Below are positions 3,449 to 13,247 of a stretch of 64,000 nt of DNA, piece after piece (positions within the stretch are counted from its first letter, which is position 1; the number at the start of each line of letters is the position of its first letter). The translations under genes were made by a program, and so were the position numbers. The stretch spans positions 1 through 64,000 of the forward strand of contig BGKB01000010.1 of assembly GCA_003116975.1 (NCBI GenBank), read 5' to 3'. A model generated the notes under the pieces. It ran no database searches. It was not told where the DNA came from and was given only the letters and a program-made list of their open reading frames with translations. This DNA is from Aurantiochytrium sp. KH105 (lineage: Eukaryota > Sar > Bigyra > Thraustochytrida > Thraustochytriidae).

Positions 3449-5032
3449 TCAAGCAGAAAGGGACGCGGCAATCTCAAAAAGCAAACACTCTCTTCCCTTG
3501 GGCACCATGACCTCTACACCCTGCGGAAGTCGCTCGTACGTGGCCAAAGGCAGAGTGAGTGCAGGCCACCCGACGGAAGGGGCCAGACGATTGTTGGCGC
3601 AGTATTGCTGTTTCCCGCTCGAAATACGCGATGGAAGTTTCTTGAACGTCGGATACGCGAGGGCATCGAGCCGCTGTGCTCGCATCAACGCCGTCAGTGC
3701 AGCCTCAAAGAGAGCGGGAAAGGTTCGCGTTAAGAGATCGTACATTTCCACCTCGCGTTTTCGCAGCTTACCATGCACCTTTTTCTGCATGGTGGAAACC
3801 ACTGACGCGCATTCGCTCGATGGCAGTCTCTCTTCGCAGGGACCAGCGGTGACAGCAGCAATGCTCGCGAGCTCCAAGCCCGTGGCCTTGCGCAGGTCGT
3901 CCTGGAACTCAAAATAGCTTGTAGACTTTTGTTTGGACAATTGTGCTACCAAACGCGACACCTCCTCGAGCGCTGCGTCTTCGGCGAGCGCAACAAAGAC
4001 AGAGCCCGATCCTTTCTGCGCCGCTCGACTCGTCGTCGCGTCTGCAAACGCGCGTCCAAGCCCGCTCTCTGTAGGGAGTAGCATGGGCAGCACGCCAATG
4101 CGACGCGGGGCATCCCGTGCCGCCGTTTCGACGCACCATGGGTGCCCACTGGCAATAGCCCATGAAGTGGCCACATCTTGGGCGTTCGCAGCCATGAAGC
4201 CAACCGTGTCTCGCGAATGACTCAGAGGTACGACACCCTCCACGGGCACGCCCCCTGTTGTCGGACGAATGCCAAAGAGCCCAGCAAAGGAGGACGGAAT
4301 GCGTACAGAGCCGCCCGTATCCGTCCCCACGCCGATCACAGCAAGCCCCAGCGCAACGGCCACAGCGGTTCCCCCGCTCGAGCCGCCCGGATATCGCGAC
4401 TTGTCAAAAGCATTCAGCGTTTGCCCGCCGCGAGATGAAGACGTGCGGAATCCGAGCGCAAATTCGTCCATGTTGGCATGACCCAAGACGACAGCTCCGG
4501 CTTCCACCAGTCGAGCCACGGCAGGTGCATGAGCTTGCGCGGGCTGTCGCATGCTCTCCATAGCGATGCTTCCCGCCGCACTAACCATGCCTTGGACATC
4601 GACATTGTCCTTGACGATAACGGGAACGCAGTACAGAGCACCATTCGTATCGCGGGACTTGGCCTCCATCAGAATATCCTCGCTGGCCCTCACTTCTACG
4701 ACCGCCTTGTACGTCTTTGCTGTTTTCCCACGCAAACGCTGCACATACGCTTGCACCACCTCCTCGCAGGTCCAGCCCTCCTTTCCTCGCGCGAGCGCCT
4801 GCACCTCGGCCACCGAGAGCACCTTGGCCGGGAGCCTGCGCGAGGTCGCTCTCGCCGCCGTCAACGTCGTCGTCGTCGCGTATCGATCTCCGCCGCGGAG
4901 CGAGCCCGCCAAGGACGACGTCAGCGCCGACGGCGAGGCCGACGCGGCCGGCGTCGAGGCCGGCGGCTCCCGCACGCCCGAGAGCGCCCGCGCCGCGAGG
5001 CCCAGGACCACGAGCGCCGCGAGCGCGACCAT
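3449..5032 (-). CDS. Amidase-signature family hydrolase with N-terminal membrane anchor
   Basis: A 527-residue enzyme of the amidase-signature family, which cleaves C-N amide bonds (GatA, fatty-acid amide hydrolases, indole amidases). The Ser-cisSer-Lys triad is complete: Lys141 in VPVIVKDNVDV, cis-Ser218 in GGSSGG, and nucleophile Ser242 in GTDTGGSVRIPSS. The chosen ATG at 5032 gives MVALAALVVLGLAARAL, a signal-anchor or signal peptide followed by a Ser/Ala/Pro-rich linker of about 60 residues before the catalytic core. The frame is open upstream to 5599, but that part is low-complexity Arg/Ala sequence overlapping the divergent channel gene. One ambiguous base (n at 5037) sits 5 bp upstream of this start; another ATG at 5049 is out of frame by one base, so the start may change if the n hides an indel. 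Substrate cannot be told; GatA is possible but the anchor argues for a secretory or organelle-surface amidase. Confidence 0.85.
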   Translation of the reverse strand: MVALAALVVLGLAARALSGVREPPASTPAASASPSALTSSLAGSLRGGDRYATTTTLTAARATSRRLPAKVLSVAEVQALARGKEGWTCEEVVQAYVQRLRGKTAKTYKAVVEVRASEDILMEAKSRDTNGALYCVPVIVKDNVDVQGMVSAAGSIAMESMRQPAQAHAPAVARLVEAGAVVLGHANMDEFALGFRTSSSRGGQTLNAFDKSRYPGGSSGGTAVAVALGLAVIGVGTDTGGSVRIPSSFAGLFGIRPTTGGVPVEGVVPLSHSRDTVGFMAANAQDVATSWAIASGHPWCVETAARDAPRRIGVLPMLLPTESGLGRAFADATTSRAAQKGSGSVFVALAEDAALEEVSRLVAQLSKQKSTSYFEFQDDLRKATGLELASIAAVTAGPCEERLPSSECASVVSTMQKKVHGKLRKREVEMYDLLTRTFPALFEAALTALMRAQRLDALAYPTFKKLPSRISSGKQQYCANNRLAPSVGWPALTLPLATYERLPQGVEVMVPKGRECLLFEIAASLSA

Positions 5033-5227
5033 GGCGNCGCGGCGGCCATGGTATCTTCGCGTCTCGCGTTCGGGTTCTGCGCGACGAGCGGAGTCCAAAC
5101 CGATCAAGCCGGACCCGGAGGAGGGCAAGACGGCGACTGCGAGAAAGATAGAAGACCAAACCAACAAACCCGTTGGGCAAACCCGCGAGGCAAACCCGCG
5201 AGGCAAACCCGCGAGGCCCCCGAGAAG
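5033..5227. promoter_or_regulatory. Short divergent promoter region between amidase and Kir genes
   Basis: Only 195 bp separate the two divergent start codons, so the promoters and 5' UTRs of both genes must lie here or overlap coding sequence. It includes three tandem 13-bp repeats (5177-5215) and one ambiguous base (n at 5037). No TATA-like element is evident. Confidence 0.5.
5177..5215. repeat. Three perfect tandem 13-bp repeats in a divergent promoter
   Basis: Unit ggcaaacccgcga, three consecutive copies, followed by a partial gg. The last copy ends 12 bp before the Kir start codon, so on the Kir side it is in the 5' UTR or core promoter. Confidence 0.85.
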
Positions 5228-6874
5228 ATGTCCTCGCGGCCGCTGCTCGGCGGCGGCGCTGCGGCTGCCGCCGACAGCGCGTCGACGCGCGGCGAGGAGG
5301 CGTACGGGGCGACGGCGCCGGGCTTGGTCTCGGCCTCGGCCTCGGGCTCGGCCTCGAGCGACCTCGGCAGCGAGTCCGCGCCGCCGGCGACAGCCGCTGC
5401 AGCTGCGGCGGCGGCGGCGGCGGCGCCTACTGCCGGCGCGGCGCAGAGATCGCGCACGGGCCAGCAGAAACGCTGGAAACGCGCCGTCGAGCGCGGGTCC
5501 TCCTTCGCGTTCCCCAACGTGGCGCAAGAAGAGGCCGACCGCCTCTTTAGCAACTATGGCGAGGGCTACGAGCGCGCGGACTGGGCGCGCAGCTGGCACT
5601 CATCGCGAGAATCCAGTGCGCAGCGCCCCAGCAGCGCGTGGAGGATCATGAATCGCGACGGCGATTTTGGACAATCCACGGGCAGCCTTCGCGTCCACCG
5701 CCTCAATCGCTCCGCAGCCCTCTACGTTGCAGATCTTTGGCACACCCTGGTCGATTCCAGCTTCCGCATGGTCTTCATCATCTTCCTCGTGCTCTACCTG
5801 CTCTCCATCCTTCTTTTTGCAGTGCTCTACATGCTCATTTCCAAGCCCTGCGAGCTGCATCTCGACAATTTCCAAAGCGCCTGGGCCTTCTCGCTCGAAA
5901 CCATTATGACGATCGGCTATGCATTTCCTGGCGACCGCGACTACTTTTCACAATGCACCTCGCTTGTCACATTCGTCACATTTGAGAGCATCCTTGGCGT
6001 TATCTGCGACTCGGTCTGCGTCGGCCTTGTTTTTGCGCGCCTTTCACGCGCACAGACACGCGCCGCGACCATTGTCTTTTCAGACTCGGCCGTCGTGCGG
6101 AGAATTCACGGCAAGCTTTCGCTCATGTTCCAGGTCGCGGAGATGCGCAAGCATCAGCTGGTCGAAGCTCACGTTCGCTGCTACGCCCTGAGTCGCCACC
6201 GCTGCGCCGACGGGTCCCCACTCATGTACTTTCGATCCGATACAATGCGGCTCGTCAAACCCGACGACGAGCTCGGTGGCATGCTTTTCATGGCCTTCCC
6301 CAGCGTTGTGGTGCACAATATTGACACCTTCTCACCTCTTCGCCCGTCCACAAAGCCAAGTACAGATGCCACAGCGCCCAACGCCTCGCGCCAGAACGTC
6401 TTTCCGGGCGTGCTGCAGCGTGACTGCGACATCGAAAACGGCTCACGCGATCTTGTGCACGACGCTGAAAAGCCTCTCTCGCATGGAAACCAAGAACCCG
6501 AGGTCAAGTCGCCCGCGTCCCAGCCTTCACAAATGGGTGCATCTTCGTCCGCCTCGTCCTTGTCGTCCTCGGCGTCCGGCCCCGTTCTCAGCGCGTACGA
6601 GGCCGAGGAAGAGGCACTCAAGCAGTACATGATTGACCATCGCGTAGAAATCATGTGCATGGTTGAGGGCATTGATGCAGTTACAAGCGACACGATCCAA
6701 GCCCGTCATTCTTATTGCTTTGAGGATATTATGTGGCACTTTGACTTTGTGCCTTGCACTCTTGAGGATGAAAACGGCGCTGCCCAGCTTGACTTTGAAC
6801 AGTTTCACAAAGTGTTTCCTGTCCCGGAGCAATACAAGAATTTGCCGCCCATGTACCTACATTCCAACCCATAA
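5228..6874 (+). CDS. Inward-rectifier (Kir-type) potassium channel with GYA filter
   Basis: A 548-residue two-TM channel. The start at 5228 (MSSRPLLGGG) is the first ATG after the divergent promoter; residues 1-75 are Ala/Ser-rich. Then come a slide-helix region ending in DLWHTLVDSSFR, TM1 (FRMVFIIFLVLYLLSILL), a pore loop (ETIMTIGYAFPGD), TM2 (TFESILGVICDSVCVGLVFARLSR) and the Kir cytoplasmic beta-domain (ATIVFSDSAVVRRIHGKLSLMF). An acidic Ser-rich insertion of about 80 residues splits the cytoplasmic domain; the second half, HRVEIMCMVEGIDAVTSDTIQARHSY, matches the conserved Kir segment VEI...EG...T...QARTSY, and the end (LDFEQFHKVFPV) matches DYSQFH. The selectivity filter has Ala at residue 232 (codon GCA, 5921-5923) where K+ channels carry Gly. 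Family assignment is strong; ion selectivity is therefore open. Confidence 0.9.
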   Translation: MSSRPLLGGGAAAAADSASTRGEEAYGATAPGLVSASASGSASSDLGSESAPPATAAAAAAAAAAAPTAGAAQRSRTGQQKRWKRAVERGSSFAFPNVAQEEADRLFSNYGEGYERADWARSWHSSRESSAQRPSSAWRIMNRDGDFGQSTGSLRVHRLNRSAALYVADLWHTLVDSSFRMVFIIFLVLYLLSILLFAVLYMLISKPCELHLDNFQSAWAFSLETIMTIGYAFPGDRDYFSQCTSLVTFVTFESILGVICDSVCVGLVFARLSRAQTRAATIVFSDSAVVRRIHGKLSLMFQVAEMRKHQLVEAHVRCYALSRHRCADGSPLMYFRSDTMRLVKPDDELGGMLFMAFPSVVVHNIDTFSPLRPSTKPSTDATAPNASRQNVFPGVLQRDCDIENGSRDLVHDAEKPLSHGNQEPEVKSPASQPSQMGASSSASSLSSSASGPVLSAYEAEEEALKQYMIDHRVEIMCMVEGIDAVTSDTIQARHSYCFEDIMWHFDFVPCTLEDENGAAQLDFEQFHKVFPVPEQYKNLPPMYLHSNP

Positions 6875-6974
6875 CCCATAGAATGCTGACATTTTCACAC
6901 ACACACACACGCAACAAAAAGAAAGACGATAAGATTACGAAACGGGCAGTGTCCCTTTTCCTTTATATACTTTC

Positions 6975-7061
6975 GAGAATGAAAACGGCGCTTGACTTTT
7001 TGAACAAGATTTTCTCCTATTTCACAAGGTTTTCCCTGTGCCAGAGCAGTACAAGAAGTTA
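6975..7061 (+). pseudogene. Decayed partial duplicate of the Kir gene 3' end
   Basis: This stretch repeats channel-gene sequence 6763-6843 in the same orientation, about 210 bp downstream. Shared blocks include aatgaaaacggcgc, cttgactttttgaaca (versus cttgactttgaaca), tttcacaa, ttttccctgt (versus gtttcctgt) and gagcagtacaagaa (versus gagcaatacaagaa). Several indels destroy the frame, so it cannot encode the peptide. It is best explained as an old local duplication that has been decaying without constraint. It lies in the 3' flank between convergent genes. Confidence 0.75.
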
Positions 7062-7239: not shown

Positions 7240-10200
7240 TTATTGCGCCAACAAACCAGGATGCGAGCGCACGAGGGCAGTAATGAGCTGTTGCAGCGCA
7301 GCATCCTCCGCATCTTCTTGAGCGCTCGCCTTGTGAGCCTGCGCAAAGAGTTCGGGCAAATCAGCGATCTCGACGCGCCGCTGCAGAATTTGCTGCGTTG
7401 TAAAAAAGAATTCGCGGCGCATGCCCAGCGAGAGCATCTGCCGCAAAAGAGCCTGCACAATCTTCGGCTCGTCCAGGAGATCAAAATCAAGCATCAAGTG
7501 CGCCACAAGCTGAACTGCACGCTCGTCACCACGATGGTCACGCCATAGCCCACGAACAAGTCCACGCTTGTCGCATTGCACTAGCTGATCAAATGTATGA
7601 GGCAAATGCAAATCCTCAAAGACGGACATGTAAATGCAGTACTGCAGATGCAAGTCTAATGGCAGTGCATCCGCGCCGCGCTGACTATACACCAAATCGA
7701 TTTGAGCGCTGCTTCCCAGCCGAAACACCGCGCGCAGAGCACGAGCGCGCGATGCAAACGATCGGCCTGGAACGTCGGTCTGAAAGGCAAAGTTCAGAAG
7801 ATACGCAATGCCGCGACATGTGTCCCGGTCGGCGTCTGGGCCGGGTCGCGCCGACATGGTGTACACAATGCGTTGCAGGAGCTCTTCCTCTACCTGTTGC
7901 GCTTCTTGCAGGCGCGCCGAAGCTGACGACGTTGTCGACGTTGACGAAGACGACGTGCTCGTCATGGCCAGCCAGCCGAGCACGAGACGCTTGCGTACCT
8001 CGAGAAGATCCACGCCATGCCGGTGGGCCAACTGCTCTGCGACCTGATGCAGCCGATGGCGGTCTTGCCATTGCGTCGCAGCCACTGGGCCAAAGCGATC
8101 GTACAGGTCTGCAATTAGCTTGCCGTAATCGAGATCCGCCTTCTTGCTCGGAAGACGGGCGGCAATTCCGGCGCGCCTCAAATCAAGCTCTGTCGCGAGC
8201 TGGTTTGCCAAACGCGTCATCTCGTCGCTTTCTGCGCGCTCAAGAGCAAAGCGCAAAATGAGCAGCTTCGCCTCTGGAGTGCCCACCTGCCCAACCAGCC
8301 ATGAGCATGCCTCCAGCACCCGGCCGTGAGACTTGACATTGTTGAGTACGGGCAGCACACTCTTGGTCACCGACTCGCCTGCGCGCATCAACTTGCGCAC
8401 AAGGCACAGGTAAAAGTCGTTCGGGTCCAAGTCCAATGGGTCGCTCAGGGCCACCAGCCATTTCACAGTGTCCGGCTCCAGGCACAACTCGAGCGCCGGC
8501 CAGGGATTTTCCTCAAAGAGCGCGTGCAGATTAAGACGAACCTCGCAGATGCGAAGCAACTCGAGCACTTGCAAGTACTTTGCCTGGCCCGGCCATGCGC
8601 ACAGACGACAAACTGCCTCGAGACGTTCGTACGAAGTTCCTGGTACGCGCGGGAAAACGTGCTCGCACACCTGAAGGAGGAGACTGTCATCCATGCGGCA
8701 TCGGGCCAGGGCGATCTCGTCTCGATGCTTGTTCAAATCGGCGCTTTCGTCCAAAAACAGGAGCTTCAGGTAGAGACCGTGCACCAAGTCATTGCGAACC
8801 TTGTATGTTTCCGCAAATGCCACCGTTTTCTCTAAATCATAGCCCGACCTGGGAATGCAGAGCTGCAAAAGGGTCTGCTGCAGGTACACATTCGCCTTCG
8901 CGCCCTCTGCGGTGAAGCGAGTCGGATCAAAGTCCACATTCAGTGACTGCAGCCAGGTCCACCATTTAGCGTTCTCCTGCATGCGTTGACAATCGAGGAC
9001 CACGTCCTGCATGTGTCTGCATCTCCCGAGCGAGATGCCCACTCCGGCCAGCTTTTGGAGACGAGCAAAGTCGCTCCGGTCATTCTTGGGCAGGCTCGAG
9101 CGAAAGCTCGCAAAAGCAGAACTTCCTTGAGCATCTGCAAGCAGGTACCCCAGCGCAAGGTCTGCATCCATGTGCGGCGCCGAAAGCACCTTGTCCGCAA
9201 GGCCACGAACTAGCTTCATGGCCGTCTCCGTGAGACCGGGCCGCACGGCAATGCCAACCACACGGAGACCCAGCTGCAAAGCGCCGTTTTGCGAAAGATG
9301 GCCCATGAGCGCCTCTGCGGCCGGCTCGGGGTTTTGGCGCGCACCCAATGCATACAAAAATCCCGCAAGCAATGGTAGCACAGCGGTCGACTCGAGAACA
9401 GTCCCGTGCTCTTTGAACCACGCATGAGCAGCTCGCGCCAAACTCCGGGTCGGGACCGCTGCGTCCTCCGAGGTGTCCCATTCAAAGCCGTCACCGCAAC
9501 GGTCTAGTACGGCTTGCACAAGACTGCTGCTTCGCAAGAGCGTGGCTGCTCTGCAAAGCTGCGCGTCGTCCTCGGTGTTCAAGCAGACATCCACCAGCAG
9601 ATCGTGGCCGGCACGCTGCGCGCGGCTACTCGAGGGAAAGCGCATTGCAAGCTCGACCGCCAGACGTTGTTTCCAATATAGACTCATGGGTCGCGCACCC
9701 CAGGCTAGGCATGCATCCAGGTTTTTAGGTTCCTGACGAGCAAGCCAGATGGCGACGCGACCAGCCATTTGTTCCCGTGAAAATCCGAGAAGCGAGGCGC
9801 GACGACCTAAATCAGTGGTCTTCGAGTTCGTGCTTTCCCGCATCACGTGCAACTCGAGCAAGCCCTCAGCATCGCCATCAAGCGAAAAGTCTTGAAGGTC
9901 AAGCCGAATCGAGAACTCCGTCTGCAGGTCGCGCGCTGCTTCAAAGCCTGCAGACCACGCGTGGCCACCACAAGCGCCCACCATGGCACCAAGACGTGCC
10001 AACGCGAGTCTTTCCTCGTCGGACTCTGCATCACTTTCCTCGGCCAGCCCCCACATGCAAAAGTTGCGGACTCGCTCCTCTACGCTTGCCACGACGTCGG
10101 GGCAAAGCTCCACCATGAGCGTGTGTAATTCGCGAACCTTTTCCTCGCTCGGTGGCTCAGATTGCAGCGTCATGTTTTCGAAGAGGGTCGCAAAGACATC

Positions 10201-12972
10201 TGCCACGTCAAAGCAACGGTACGCGCGCGCAATTTGCACCGCACGCTCTGCGACCGTCTCGGACTGTGCCAAAACATACATGAGAATGGCTTTGGCCTGG
10301 GTTGCACTTCCAAAGTTGATCTGCCGGTCGAGCTGGAAAGATGACAGCAACGAAGAGAGATCCATAAGCCTCTTTTGATCCAAGATCTCGCCTTGCAAGT
10401 CTGTTGTCCAGGTCATGGCCGTCTCCACTACGGCAGAAAGTTCATCGCTGTATGGTGGCACAATGTTGCGCATGAGAGTGAGCACGGCGCGCGAAGCGGC
10501 CGTCAGATCGCCAATTTGTCCGACGGCTTTGACCGCACATTGCTCCCATGCACTGCTCGACGAGTCGATCTCCAAAGCGACGCGCGAAATGTAACGCACC
10601 AAAACTTCGTCTGCGTCAACGCCGTATCGGGCTGCGCATGGCCTCAAATGGTCCTTGGTGGCCCTGGCAATCAGCTCGGGCGCCGTCACACGGCTCATCA
10701 TGTCCATGAGCACCTCGACGCGCGAAGCACTCCGAAAAGACTCGACGCTGATTGCAAGCGCATGCTCACGTTGCAAGTGAATCACCTCGATGAGATCGGC
10801 ACGCAGGCGTTCAAGCTCGGCAATGGCATGATTCTCTGCCCGAGGTCCGCTCTCGGCAGCCTGTCTGGCAAGTTCGCCTGGACTGCACAGACGAAGTTTG
10901 AGCTTTTCTCGTTCCGTTTGGACCTGCGCAGAGGCAATCATTGCAGCCTCTTGGATCAGGCTCAAAGCGCTGACAGCATCGAGCGTCTTGCTGGCCATGA
11001 ACACGGACCAAGACGCTAGTTGTGCCTTTTGTCCGTGCGAACGAACGTGCGGCCCGACGTGGTCACGAAGCCAGTCTACGAGGACTTCTGTAGAAGTCTC
11101 GGCAGGAATGTAGGCCAACAAACGTACCACGTCGTCCTCTTCAGCGCGAATGTGCCGGTGCAAGACAATTGCAGCCATTTGTAGCTGTCCCTTTTGGAGA
11201 AACAGAGTGAGGGCTTGCATCAGGCGGCACGTGCGAAATCGCTGCCATTCTTCACAGTCAAAGGCATCACTCAGCAACGTGTACGTTTCCAGTCTGTACA
11301 GCGCATCCTTGACTTGTGCGAGGAGCGCCTCGTGAGCATGATCGCTGCACAGATCCTCAGCCTTGCGTAGGAGTCGCTTTTGCGCTGCGGGGGCGCCTGG
11401 CAAGCGAACTTGCATGCACCCTTGCACAACAAAGCCGAGGAATCGCTGAGGGTCCATGGCAATAAGTTCATCCACAACGCCAAAAAACTTTTCGTAAATC
11501 GTTTCTGGAAGGTCCGAGATGCCCTCGCCGTCCAATAGGTGCGAACGCGCCGTTTCCAAGAGCTGGCTCAGTTTGCCCTTGAATGCACGATCTCGCCCCG
11601 GCAAGTCATGCTGCGTTGCAAGAGCAAGGGCCTCGTCGAAGCGACCTCCGCTCAGGAGTGATTCAAAGCGCATGGCGTCGTTGCTCTCAAAGCAAACAAT
11701 CCCCTTGACCCCTCCCGTGCTTTGTTGACGGATTGCGAAGCTGCGCGAACCCGGAATAGCGACAAGGCGACTCGCAGTGTCGCTGGCCTCATCTTTGTCT
11801 CGGACTCGCGACTCGTATAGCGTTTCGAGCGTCGTCGATCCATGCAGCCGGATTCGTGCAACCTGGAGCGTGCCATCGGCGCGCAGGATACCAAGGCGCG
11901 CACCCGTTCCCATGCAAGCAATGTCGACAATGCCTGGGCTCACGCAAAGGCAGCGCAAGAGCGTCGCACGGCGCGCATCCCAAAGACAGACGCGGCCCGA
12001 CTGGCTCAGTGTCACTGCCATCGTTTGGCTCGCTGTGTTTTCCAGCGCGCAAAAGGGCGATGTGCTGTCCAGTGGGTCGCCTCCGACACTGTCGCAGCGA
12101 AGGGGAGACCGGCTGTCCACGCTGACCCAGACAGAAAGTTGCGGGGCATCTCGCGCAGCCAAGAGGACGCGAAGAAATCCCGTAGCTTCATTTCGAGCAA
12201 CGAGCATGCCCATGGATCCGCCGGCAGCGCAGCTTGGGTCAAGCTCAAAGCTTTGCATCGAGGCCGAATCCCGGACACTCTTGAGCAGAGCCGTGTTCCC
12301 GCCTTCTGCCGCGTCCTCCAGGAGGTGTAAGCACAAGTTAGAGAACCGAAAGAGGCGCGCAGGATTTCGAGAGGCGATAAATAGTTCTTCGCCCACTTGC
12401 TCGCTGTCGAAAAAGCTTGGCTGTTCCAAGAATGTCATGCAATCGAATCGCTGTCCCCGCGTTCCGAGCATGGGCTGCGAAAAGAGCAGGGAGCCTCGGT
12501 CGCTGATAAAGTGCAAGGTGCCGCGCGCGTCGCCCACGCAAAAGCAAGTCCCGCTAGAGTTCCATGCCAAGACATCTGCCGAAAGGCTGAAGCGCGCACG
12601 TTCTATGGCGGGTCCCATCCTCGCATCGAGTTCGAGCAGCCGCAGGTCCTTCCCAGCGCCCAAGCACATCATCGTGCCAGGCTGCACTGTGCCGTCGTCG
12701 TGCCCATCGTCGTCCTCGCTATGCCCAGAGGCTTGCGCTGCAGCGTAGACAAGACTGCCTTGTTGAGGCAGCTTTTCGCTGCCAGATTGAGACAGGCCCT
12801 GCTCGGCCTCGAGGTTGCCAGCAGTGGCATCGTTTTCTGCGTCACATTCTTGACTCTGGCGCTTCGCAGTCGATGCATCTCCAACCTCGGTCTGCTTCCC
12901 AGCAGCAACGAGGTCCACCTCGACGACGGTGGCCAGAGCGAACAGGTCGCGGTCCATGCCCGTTTGCGCCAT
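7240..12972 (-). CDS. KNTC1: Kinetochore protein ROD/KNTC1 homologue (RZZ complex)
   Basis: A 1910-residue protein in one open frame (human KNTC1 is about 2200). KNTC1/ROD with ZWILCH and ZW10 forms the RZZ complex of the kinetochore corona, which recruits Spindly-dynein and Mad1-Mad2. The N-terminal 430 residues look like a beta-propeller (SADVLAWNSSGTCFCVGDARG; VCLWDARRATLLRCLCV), followed by an alpha-solenoid to the end. Family-like landmarks are RFESLLSGGRFDEALALATQ after the propeller, and KRGLVRGLWRDHRGDERAVQ followed by LMLDFDLLDEPKIVQALL near the C-terminus, matching the KNTC1 C-terminal motif as I recall it. The frame extends upstream to a non-ATG codon; ATG 12972 (MAQTGMDRDLFALATVVEVDL) is preferred because it puts VEVDL where KNTC1 has its first propeller strand. 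NBAS is the main alternative but lacks the GLW motif. Confidence 0.82.
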   Translation of the reverse strand: MAQTGMDRDLFALATVVEVDLVAAGKQTEVGDASTAKRQSQECDAENDATAGNLEAEQGLSQSGSEKLPQQGSLVYAAAQASGHSEDDDGHDDGTVQPGTMMCLGAGKDLRLLELDARMGPAIERARFSLSADVLAWNSSGTCFCVGDARGTLHFISDRGSLLFSQPMLGTRGQRFDCMTFLEQPSFFDSEQVGEELFIASRNPARLFRFSNLCLHLLEDAAEGGNTALLKSVRDSASMQSFELDPSCAAGGSMGMLVARNEATGFLRVLLAARDAPQLSVWVSVDSRSPLRCDSVGGDPLDSTSPFCALENTASQTMAVTLSQSGRVCLWDARRATLLRCLCVSPGIVDIACMGTGARLGILRADGTLQVARIRLHGSTTLETLYESRVRDKDEASDTASRLVAIPGSRSFAIRQQSTGGVKGIVCFESNDAMRFESLLSGGRFDEALALATQHDLPGRDRAFKGKLSQLLETARSHLLDGEGISDLPETIYEKFFGVVDELIAMDPQRFLGFVVQGCMQVRLPGAPAAQKRLLRKAEDLCSDHAHEALLAQVKDALYRLETYTLLSDAFDCEEWQRFRTCRLMQALTLFLQKGQLQMAAIVLHRHIRAEEDDVVRLLAYIPAETSTEVLVDWLRDHVGPHVRSHGQKAQLASWSVFMASKTLDAVSALSLIQEAAMIASAQVQTEREKLKLRLCSPGELARQAAESGPRAENHAIAELERLRADLIEVIHLQREHALAISVESFRSASRVEVLMDMMSRVTAPELIARATKDHLRPCAARYGVDADEVLVRYISRVALEIDSSSSAWEQCAVKAVGQIGDLTAASRAVLTLMRNIVPPYSDELSAVVETAMTWTTDLQGEILDQKRLMDLSSLLSSFQLDRQINFGSATQAKAILMYVLAQSETVAERAVQIARAYRCFDVADVFATLFENMTLQSEPPSEEKVRELHTLMVELCPDVVASVEERVRNFCMWGLAEESDAESDEERLALARLGAMVGACGGHAWSAGFEAARDLQTEFSIRLDLQDFSLDGDAEGLLELHVMRESTNSKTTDLGRRASLLGFSREQMAGRVAIWLARQEPKNLDACLAWGARPMSLYWKQRLAVELAMRFPSSSRAQRAGHDLLVDVCLNTEDDAQLCRAATLLRSSSLVQAVLDRCGDGFEWDTSEDAAVPTRSLARAAHAWFKEHGTVLESTAVLPLLAGFLYALGARQNPEPAAEALMGHLSQNGALQLGLRVVGIAVRPGLTETAMKLVRGLADKVLSAPHMDADLALGYLLADAQGSSAFASFRSSLPKNDRSDFARLQKLAGVGISLGRCRHMQDVVLDCQRMQENAKWWTWLQSLNVDFDPTRFTAEGAKANVYLQQTLLQLCIPRSGYDLEKTVAFAETYKVRNDLVHGLYLKLLFLDESADLNKHRDEIALARCRMDDSLLLQVCEHVFPRVPGTSYERLEAVCRLCAWPGQAKYLQVLELLRICEVRLNLHALFEENPWPALELCLEPDTVKWLVALSDPLDLDPNDFYLCLVRKLMRAGESVTKSVLPVLNNVKSHGRVLEACSWLVGQVGTPEAKLLILRFALERAESDEMTRLANQLATELDLRRAGIAARLPSKKADLDYGKLIADLYDRFGPVAATQWQDRHRLHQVAEQLAHRHGVDLLEVRKRLVLGWLAMTSTSSSSTSTTSSASARLQEAQQVEEELLQRIVYTMSARPGPDADRDTCRGIAYLLNFAFQTDVPGRSFASRARALRAVFRLGSSAQIDLVYSQRGADALPLDLHLQYCIYMSVFEDLHLPHTFDQLVQCDKRGLVRGLWRDHRGDERAVQLVAHLMLDFDLLDEPKIVQALLRQMLSLGMRREFFFTTQQILQRRVEIADLPELFAQAHKASAQEDAEDAALQQLITALVRSHPGLLAQ

Positions 12973-13247
12973 GGCCGGCTTGGTGCGCGGGTCCTTCGCG
13001 CCTTCGAAGCAAGTCGTTCCCGACTCGGCAAGCCGTACGAGTTTGCCAGCGCGACACGTACGCGCTCGCCCCGACGCAAGCTTTCGCAGTCGTCCGTTTC
13101 GACTGCCGACGTGCGTACGCTCGCTTGCACGCACGCGCTCGCGCCGCGCGAATGGCTTTTGATCAGGGGTTTGGGCGCGGCGGTTGTCGCGCAAGAGGAT
13201 GCCTTACTTCATATAACATTCACACCATGTAAATCATGTACGTTTGG
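12973..13247. promoter_or_regulatory. Spacer between two minus-strand genes
   Basis: The 275 bp between the stop of the giant upstream gene and the KNTC1 start codon must hold the 3' UTR of the former and the promoter of the latter. I see no TATA box or clear polyadenylation hexamer on the minus strand. The inferred regulatory role rests on position only. Confidence 0.3.

Follow-up and report, generated by a model that had tools for sequence, protein, structure and literature searches.

A Kir-type gene of Aurantiochytrium sp. KH105 with a GYA selectivity filter probably encodes a channel subunit with a modulatory role, poor conduction or reduced selectivity

Both glycines of the GYG selectivity filter are treated as indispensable. 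The papers cited here by accession are represented by excerpts, in which the filter glycines are called absolutely conserved and structurally required (PMC9273215) and mutations of the second glycine are said to abolish selectivity and function (PMC3283738). At this second position, G146S of Kir2.1 (numbering as in PMC8026347 and PMC5634867) blocked ion flow with localization unaffected (PMC8026347), Kv7.2 with a GYS filter was inactive, a kind of mutant known as dominant negative, and Kv8.1 G399R left Kv7.2 mixtures with about 54% of their current (PMC11335225). First-glycine mutants of BK, GIRK2 and Shaker, in contrast, conduct with reduced selectivity; KcsA G77A also conducts, about 32-fold less, and the data on its selectivity conflict, with liposome flux indicating a wild-type-like channel and simulations disagreeing (PMC11251424). 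For surface expression, a mutational scan of Kir2.1 found the filter more tolerant than its neighbours (PMC9273215). Natural channels in which another residue takes the place of the second glycine have already been published, namely other protozoan channels with GYS or GYR filters (PMC3283738). Our search of the open-access literature, with subscription papers mostly outside it, found no Kir with GYA, and the sole match for GYA together with "selectivity filter" used Gya for billion years.

The gene, which we name KirA, is on contig C10 of the Aurantiochytrium sp. KH105 assembly (76 Mb, 367 contigs), and positions below are those of the window, the whole stretch of 64,000 nucleotides that was analysed and with which the contig begins. 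In this genome the PUFA-synthase profile TIGR02813 (PfaA) scored 930 bits against a cut-off of 1010, and as it also responded in 11 of 14 control genomes it is of little value as a thraustochytrid marker. Its coding frame of 548 amino acids plus stop occupies 5228-6874 (+), the start ATG being the likely one. The frame is free of stop codons from 4439 to 6874 and runs straight through the filter, which rules out an intron or frame artefact at that point. The filter itself (5909-5926, +) reads ACG ATC GGC TAT GCA TTT, or T-I-G-Y-A-F, with GCA at 5921-5923 (+) encoding alanine 232, which corresponds to G146 of Kir2.1. When KirA was compared with PDB sequences by phmmer, the best matches were Kir2.2 and Kir2.1 (E 1.2e-37 for Kir2.2, 3sph), and the alignment set G-Y-G of Kir2.2 against G-Y-A of KirA. 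The Pfam domain IRK (PF01007; transmembrane and pore region, protein 155-275, 5690-6052, +) scored 67.2 bits against a cut-off of 22.7, and the cytoplasmic domain IRK_C (PF17655) scored 92.2 bits against 22.5, in two pieces (6071-6349 and 6626-6829, both +) around a low-complexity insertion (6350-6625, +). The window sequence, open frame and aligned Kir pore thus confirm the GYA filter reported in an earlier note on this DNA, and its description of a Kir-type gene with intact surroundings is borne out by both domains and by the motifs QARHSY and LEDENGA..DFEQFH. Where the K+-channel signature T-x-G-(Y/F)-G would stand, both copies of KirA read T-I-G-Y-A, and for this reason we did not class it as a K+-selective channel. 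The degenerate DNA pattern T-[IMV]-G-Y-A-[FDVY] occurred at 9 places in the genome and its reversed control at 11, and only the two KirA copies among the nine coincided with a channel match; since the pattern is no commoner than its control, the string alone is meaningless, and what matters is that it sits in a Kir pore by alignment.

Head to head with KirA lies an amidase-family gene (3449-5032, -; PF01425, 230.7 bits). Downstream, at 6957-7061, the last KirA codons are partly duplicated in a degenerate form that includes a TGA, and this duplicate is also found beside the second copy; beyond it runs a 1987-aa frame for a KNTC1/Rod-like kinetochore protein (7240-13203, -), in which Rod_C and three KNTC1 ARM domains exceed their cut-offs.

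An extracellular cysteine pair is a defining feature of the Kir family, and C208 and C243 of KirA, which align with cysteines of Kir2.2 and bound the stretch 5849-5956 (+), are presumably the Kir disulfide cysteines. We take R78, W79, R80, K183, R186, K188 and K189 to be the PIP2-binding basic cluster of Kir. In KirA, R80, K183 and R186 have basic counterparts, and at the positions of R78, W79, K188 and K189 stand Ser, Phe, Gln and Thr (for R78, Ser in either of two adjacent alignment columns), which makes even ordinary Kir gating of KirA uncertain; KirC, one of three further Kir genes described below, has Arg at the R78 column, and KirD has Trp at W79. Close to the filter, the filter threonine is kept, as is the pore-helix glutamate E138 of Kir2.1 (Glu224; 5897-5899, +), and the adjoining residue is Met227 in KirA only, with Ser, Ala and Leu in the other three genes. 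The R148 position of Kir2.1 is Pro234, a proline common to all four genes, so that KirA lacks, as such, the ion pair of E138 and R148 that reportedly stabilises the pore loop of Kir2.1 (PMC6920955, in excerpt). Asp261 (6008-6010, +) corresponds to D172 of Kir2.1, to which a rectification role is assigned (PMC3283738, in excerpt), and is again confined to KirA among the four genes, the others having Asn. A second rectification site, E224 of Kir2.1, is kept as Glu313, and the equivalent of E299 is Asn.

Most genes that we searched for in this genome occur in near-identical pairs, as would be expected of a diploid assembly, and KirA has a partner on contig C7 that is 99% identical in protein. Two blocks of the DNA are collinear between the copies, one of 5.1 kb with 91.4% identity and the other of 4.0 kb with 96.3%, and the frame is open in both copies. 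Over the whole gene we obtained dS 0.061, dN 0.0069 and dN/dS 0.114; within the core of 310 codons the values were 0.089, 0.0049 and 0.055, and outside it dN/dS was 0.35 in this two-copy comparison (Fisher's test on rounded core counts, p about 9e-9). The eight amino-acid differences include one in the pore turret (Gln216/Leu), and filter codons 228-233, GCA included, are identical. The same GCA in two diverged, constrained copies points to a real, constrained gene and not to a base error. Within the limits of two copies from one genome, the comparison indicates that KirA is a genuine Kir-family subunit kept by selection.

The IRK_C profile found 14 pieces in the genome, belonging to 8 gene copies in 4 pairs. 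Besides KirA on C10 and C7 (TIGYAF), these are KirB on C90 and C49 (L006:2980-5532, +; filter TIGYGF), KirC on C112 and C24 (L050:1630-5091, -; TSGFGL) and KirD on C83 and C85 (L052:569-5368, -, and L053:365-5185, -; TLGYGP). PF01007 matched the KirA and KirB pairs only, KirC and KirD passing IRK_C alone, which marks these two as more distant. KirA and KirB share 48% identity over a 168-aa pore stretch. With a midpoint root, the tree joined KirA, KirB and KirC in one group (support 99/98), with KirB and KirC together inside it (99/97), the KirA copies paired (98/89), prokaryotic KirBac sequences outside and KirD on a long branch among them. With glycine in KirB, KirC, KirD, Kir2 and KirBac, the alanine of KirA is most simply read as a Gly-to-Ala change on its own branch, and for this one genome the sequences indicate that glycine is ancestral and that alanine arose after KirA split from KirB and KirC. 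As to the architecture of the other genes, KirB and KirC carry long insertions that split IRK_C at the same place as the shorter one of KirA. The KirB insertion has a C2H2-like stretch under the Pfam cut-off (E 0.0014), and a similar CPVC...H stretch was seen by eye in that of KirC. KirD combines, in one 1600-aa frame, a Kir-type pore and IRK_C with several domains of GST type (three stretches of GST_N_2, two of GST_C_2, and CLIC-like_N at 40.5 bits), a Kir-GST fusion.

The second filter position was also read in more distant sequences. A query taken from behind the filter, chosen to avoid favouring GYG, gave 65 prokaryotic Kir loci, mostly from Paraburkholderia, Burkholderia or Caballeronia, and all 65 read GYG; 19 of them were aligned, and 11 of these 19 entered the tree. 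PF01007 gave no match in three prokaryote genomes whose Kir loci were already known, and PF17655 was used instead. This IRK_C search covered two phyla and provided 46 loci, made up of the best 30 of 56 matches (in 54 of 292 genomes) and 16 of 16 (in 16 of 398 genomes); 45 were read, all GYG, with L143 unread, and G001 and G003 belong to both the 46 and the 65. Among 89 Ion_trans_2 pore matches in the Aurantiochytrium genome itself, 30 filters were read (29 GYG, 1 GFG); the remaining 59 include two of KirD (GYG) and 57 that were left unread. On C90/C49, C59/C214, C110/C33 and C113/C104, Ion_trans_2 occurs three to four times per apparent frame of about 2400-2900 aa, and, judged from the frame lengths, these are possibly single-chain multi-pore K+ channels. 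Viral contigs searched with the KirA core gave 28 stretches that fit a pattern, none a relative; 83 stretches from genome contigs searched with an alignment likewise included no relative, and phage records gave no match. Plasmid records gave 9 matches, all below 60% identity, and both filters read among them were GYG.

Taken together, KirA is probably a modulatory, poorly conducting or less selective subunit and not an ordinary potassium channel. Strong constraint, canonical sisters in the genome and the published mutants lead us to rank first the reading that KirA has been kept as a modulatory subunit of mixed tetramers, to which we give a little under an even chance. Judging by its intact domains and by the constraint, KirA would probably fold and assemble as a Kir subunit; a ring of four alanines would be expected to strain the outer ion sites, and homotetramers would, by analogy with published mutants at the same position, conduct little or nothing. 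The three other Kir-like genes, with GYG or GFG filters, are possible partners and make a role in mixed tetramers possible: KirA could enter tetramers with such a sister and lower or reshape the current, and these tetramers would gain its rectification aspartate and its cytoplasmic domain. The mutants at the second glycine that do not conduct (Kir2.1 G146S, Kv7.2 GYS) favour the modulatory subunit, with a less selective conducting channel close behind. Counting against the modulatory subunit, alanine is a milder change than the Ser or Arg of the published mutants, a pore-lining Asp261 would be of no obvious use to a silent subunit, the changed PIP2-site residues put even ordinary Kir gating in doubt, and KirD, and to a lesser degree KirC, are distant. 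Retention of Asp261 suggests that ions or blockers enter a KirA-lined pore, which would suit a modulatory as well as a conducting KirA.

Conduction through the alanine filter can be framed broadly or narrowly. Broadly, a wild-type Kir, on its own or in mixed tetramers, would conduct ions through a GYA filter that occurs naturally; the neighbouring changes Met227 and Pro234 would shift or rebuild its K+/Na+ selectivity, and Asp261 would preserve strong rectification; we regard this as quite possible, while leaning against it. More narrowly, KirA alone would be a conducting inward rectifier, its conductance low and its preference for K+ over Na+ relaxed because the outer filter sites are distorted or hydrated, a reading that we hold somewhat less likely than the modulatory subunit. 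The strong constraint on the channel core and the preserved Asp261, Glu313, cysteine pair and Glu224 agree with this, Met227 might compensate for the alanine, and conduction by first-glycine mutants of BK, GIRK2 and Shaker and by KcsA G77A (PMC11251424) gives it precedents; yet these precedents lie at the first glycine, the second-glycine mutants in the excerpts of PMC11335225 and PMC8026347 do not conduct, and the selectivity data for KcsA G77A conflict (PMC11251424). Should surrounding changes let alanine adopt the backbone geometry of glycine, KirA would be an ordinary K+-selective Kir. Intact domains and constraint accord with such a channel, as do Met227 and the shared Pro234, which differ from animal Kir2, but we consider it unlikely, given the second glycine in the three other Kir genes, in all 65 prokaryotic loci and in 45 of the 46 (one unread), and the description of the filter glycines as absolutely conserved and structurally required (PMC9273215, in excerpt).

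That KirA is a decaying gene whose filter was free to change is very improbable. The degenerate duplicate just downstream, in both copies, tells of local rearrangement, and a very recent loss of function would be compatible with a two-copy comparison, but the open frame in both copies and the core dN/dS of 0.055 argue against decay; on these grounds we rejected a pseudogene, in line with the earlier note. A base-calling or assembly error, which that note had offered as an alternative (G to C), is effectively excluded and its probability negligible: the single N at 5037, just upstream of KirA, means that the assembly is imperfect, but the second copy, diverged at about 6% of the synonymous sites and over 4-9% of the aligned DNA, has the same codon, and where the note looked to other reads or close orthologues for GGA or GGC, the one close copy inspected, that on C7, reads GCA.

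KirA thus presents a natural, apparently selection-kept case from the Kir family, alongside sister genes with canonical filters in the same cell. With a single gene and a single codon, it makes testable whether a K+-type filter works with alanine at the second glycine or whether such a subunit is kept only to modulate others, and a conducting GYA filter, if true, would be a natural counter-example to the indispensability of both filter glycines.

Among known systems, animal Kir2.1 and Kir2.2, the best PDB sequence matches, share with KirA the two-helix pore and IRK_C, the cysteine pair, the pore-helix glutamate (E138), the rectification aspartate (D172) and the glutamate E224; KirA differs in having GYA instead of GYG, Pro at R148, several changed PIP2-site residues and Asn at E299, and in its long N-terminal tail and the low-complexity insertion in its cytoplasmic domain. 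KirB, KirC and KirD resemble KirA in their Kir domains and the proline after the filter, and KirB and KirC also in an IRK_C split by an insertion, whereas their filters are GYG, GFG and GYG and their rectification site is Asn. KirBac channels have the same two domains, at 26-31% identity over the 19 aligned rows, but read GYG wherever the filter was read and are without the insertion in those rows. The GYX homologues of Leishmania, Trypanosoma and Trichomonas, as described in the excerpts of PMC3283738, parallel KirA in having the second filter glycine replaced within a pore that otherwise resembles that of K+ channels, and canonical homologues in the genome. The Leishmania GYX are KCa2/3-like, and one of Trichomonas is treated among cyclic-nucleotide-type channels; the GYX homologues read GYS or GYR followed by D or E, while KirA is Kir-type and reads GYA followed by F (PMC3283738).
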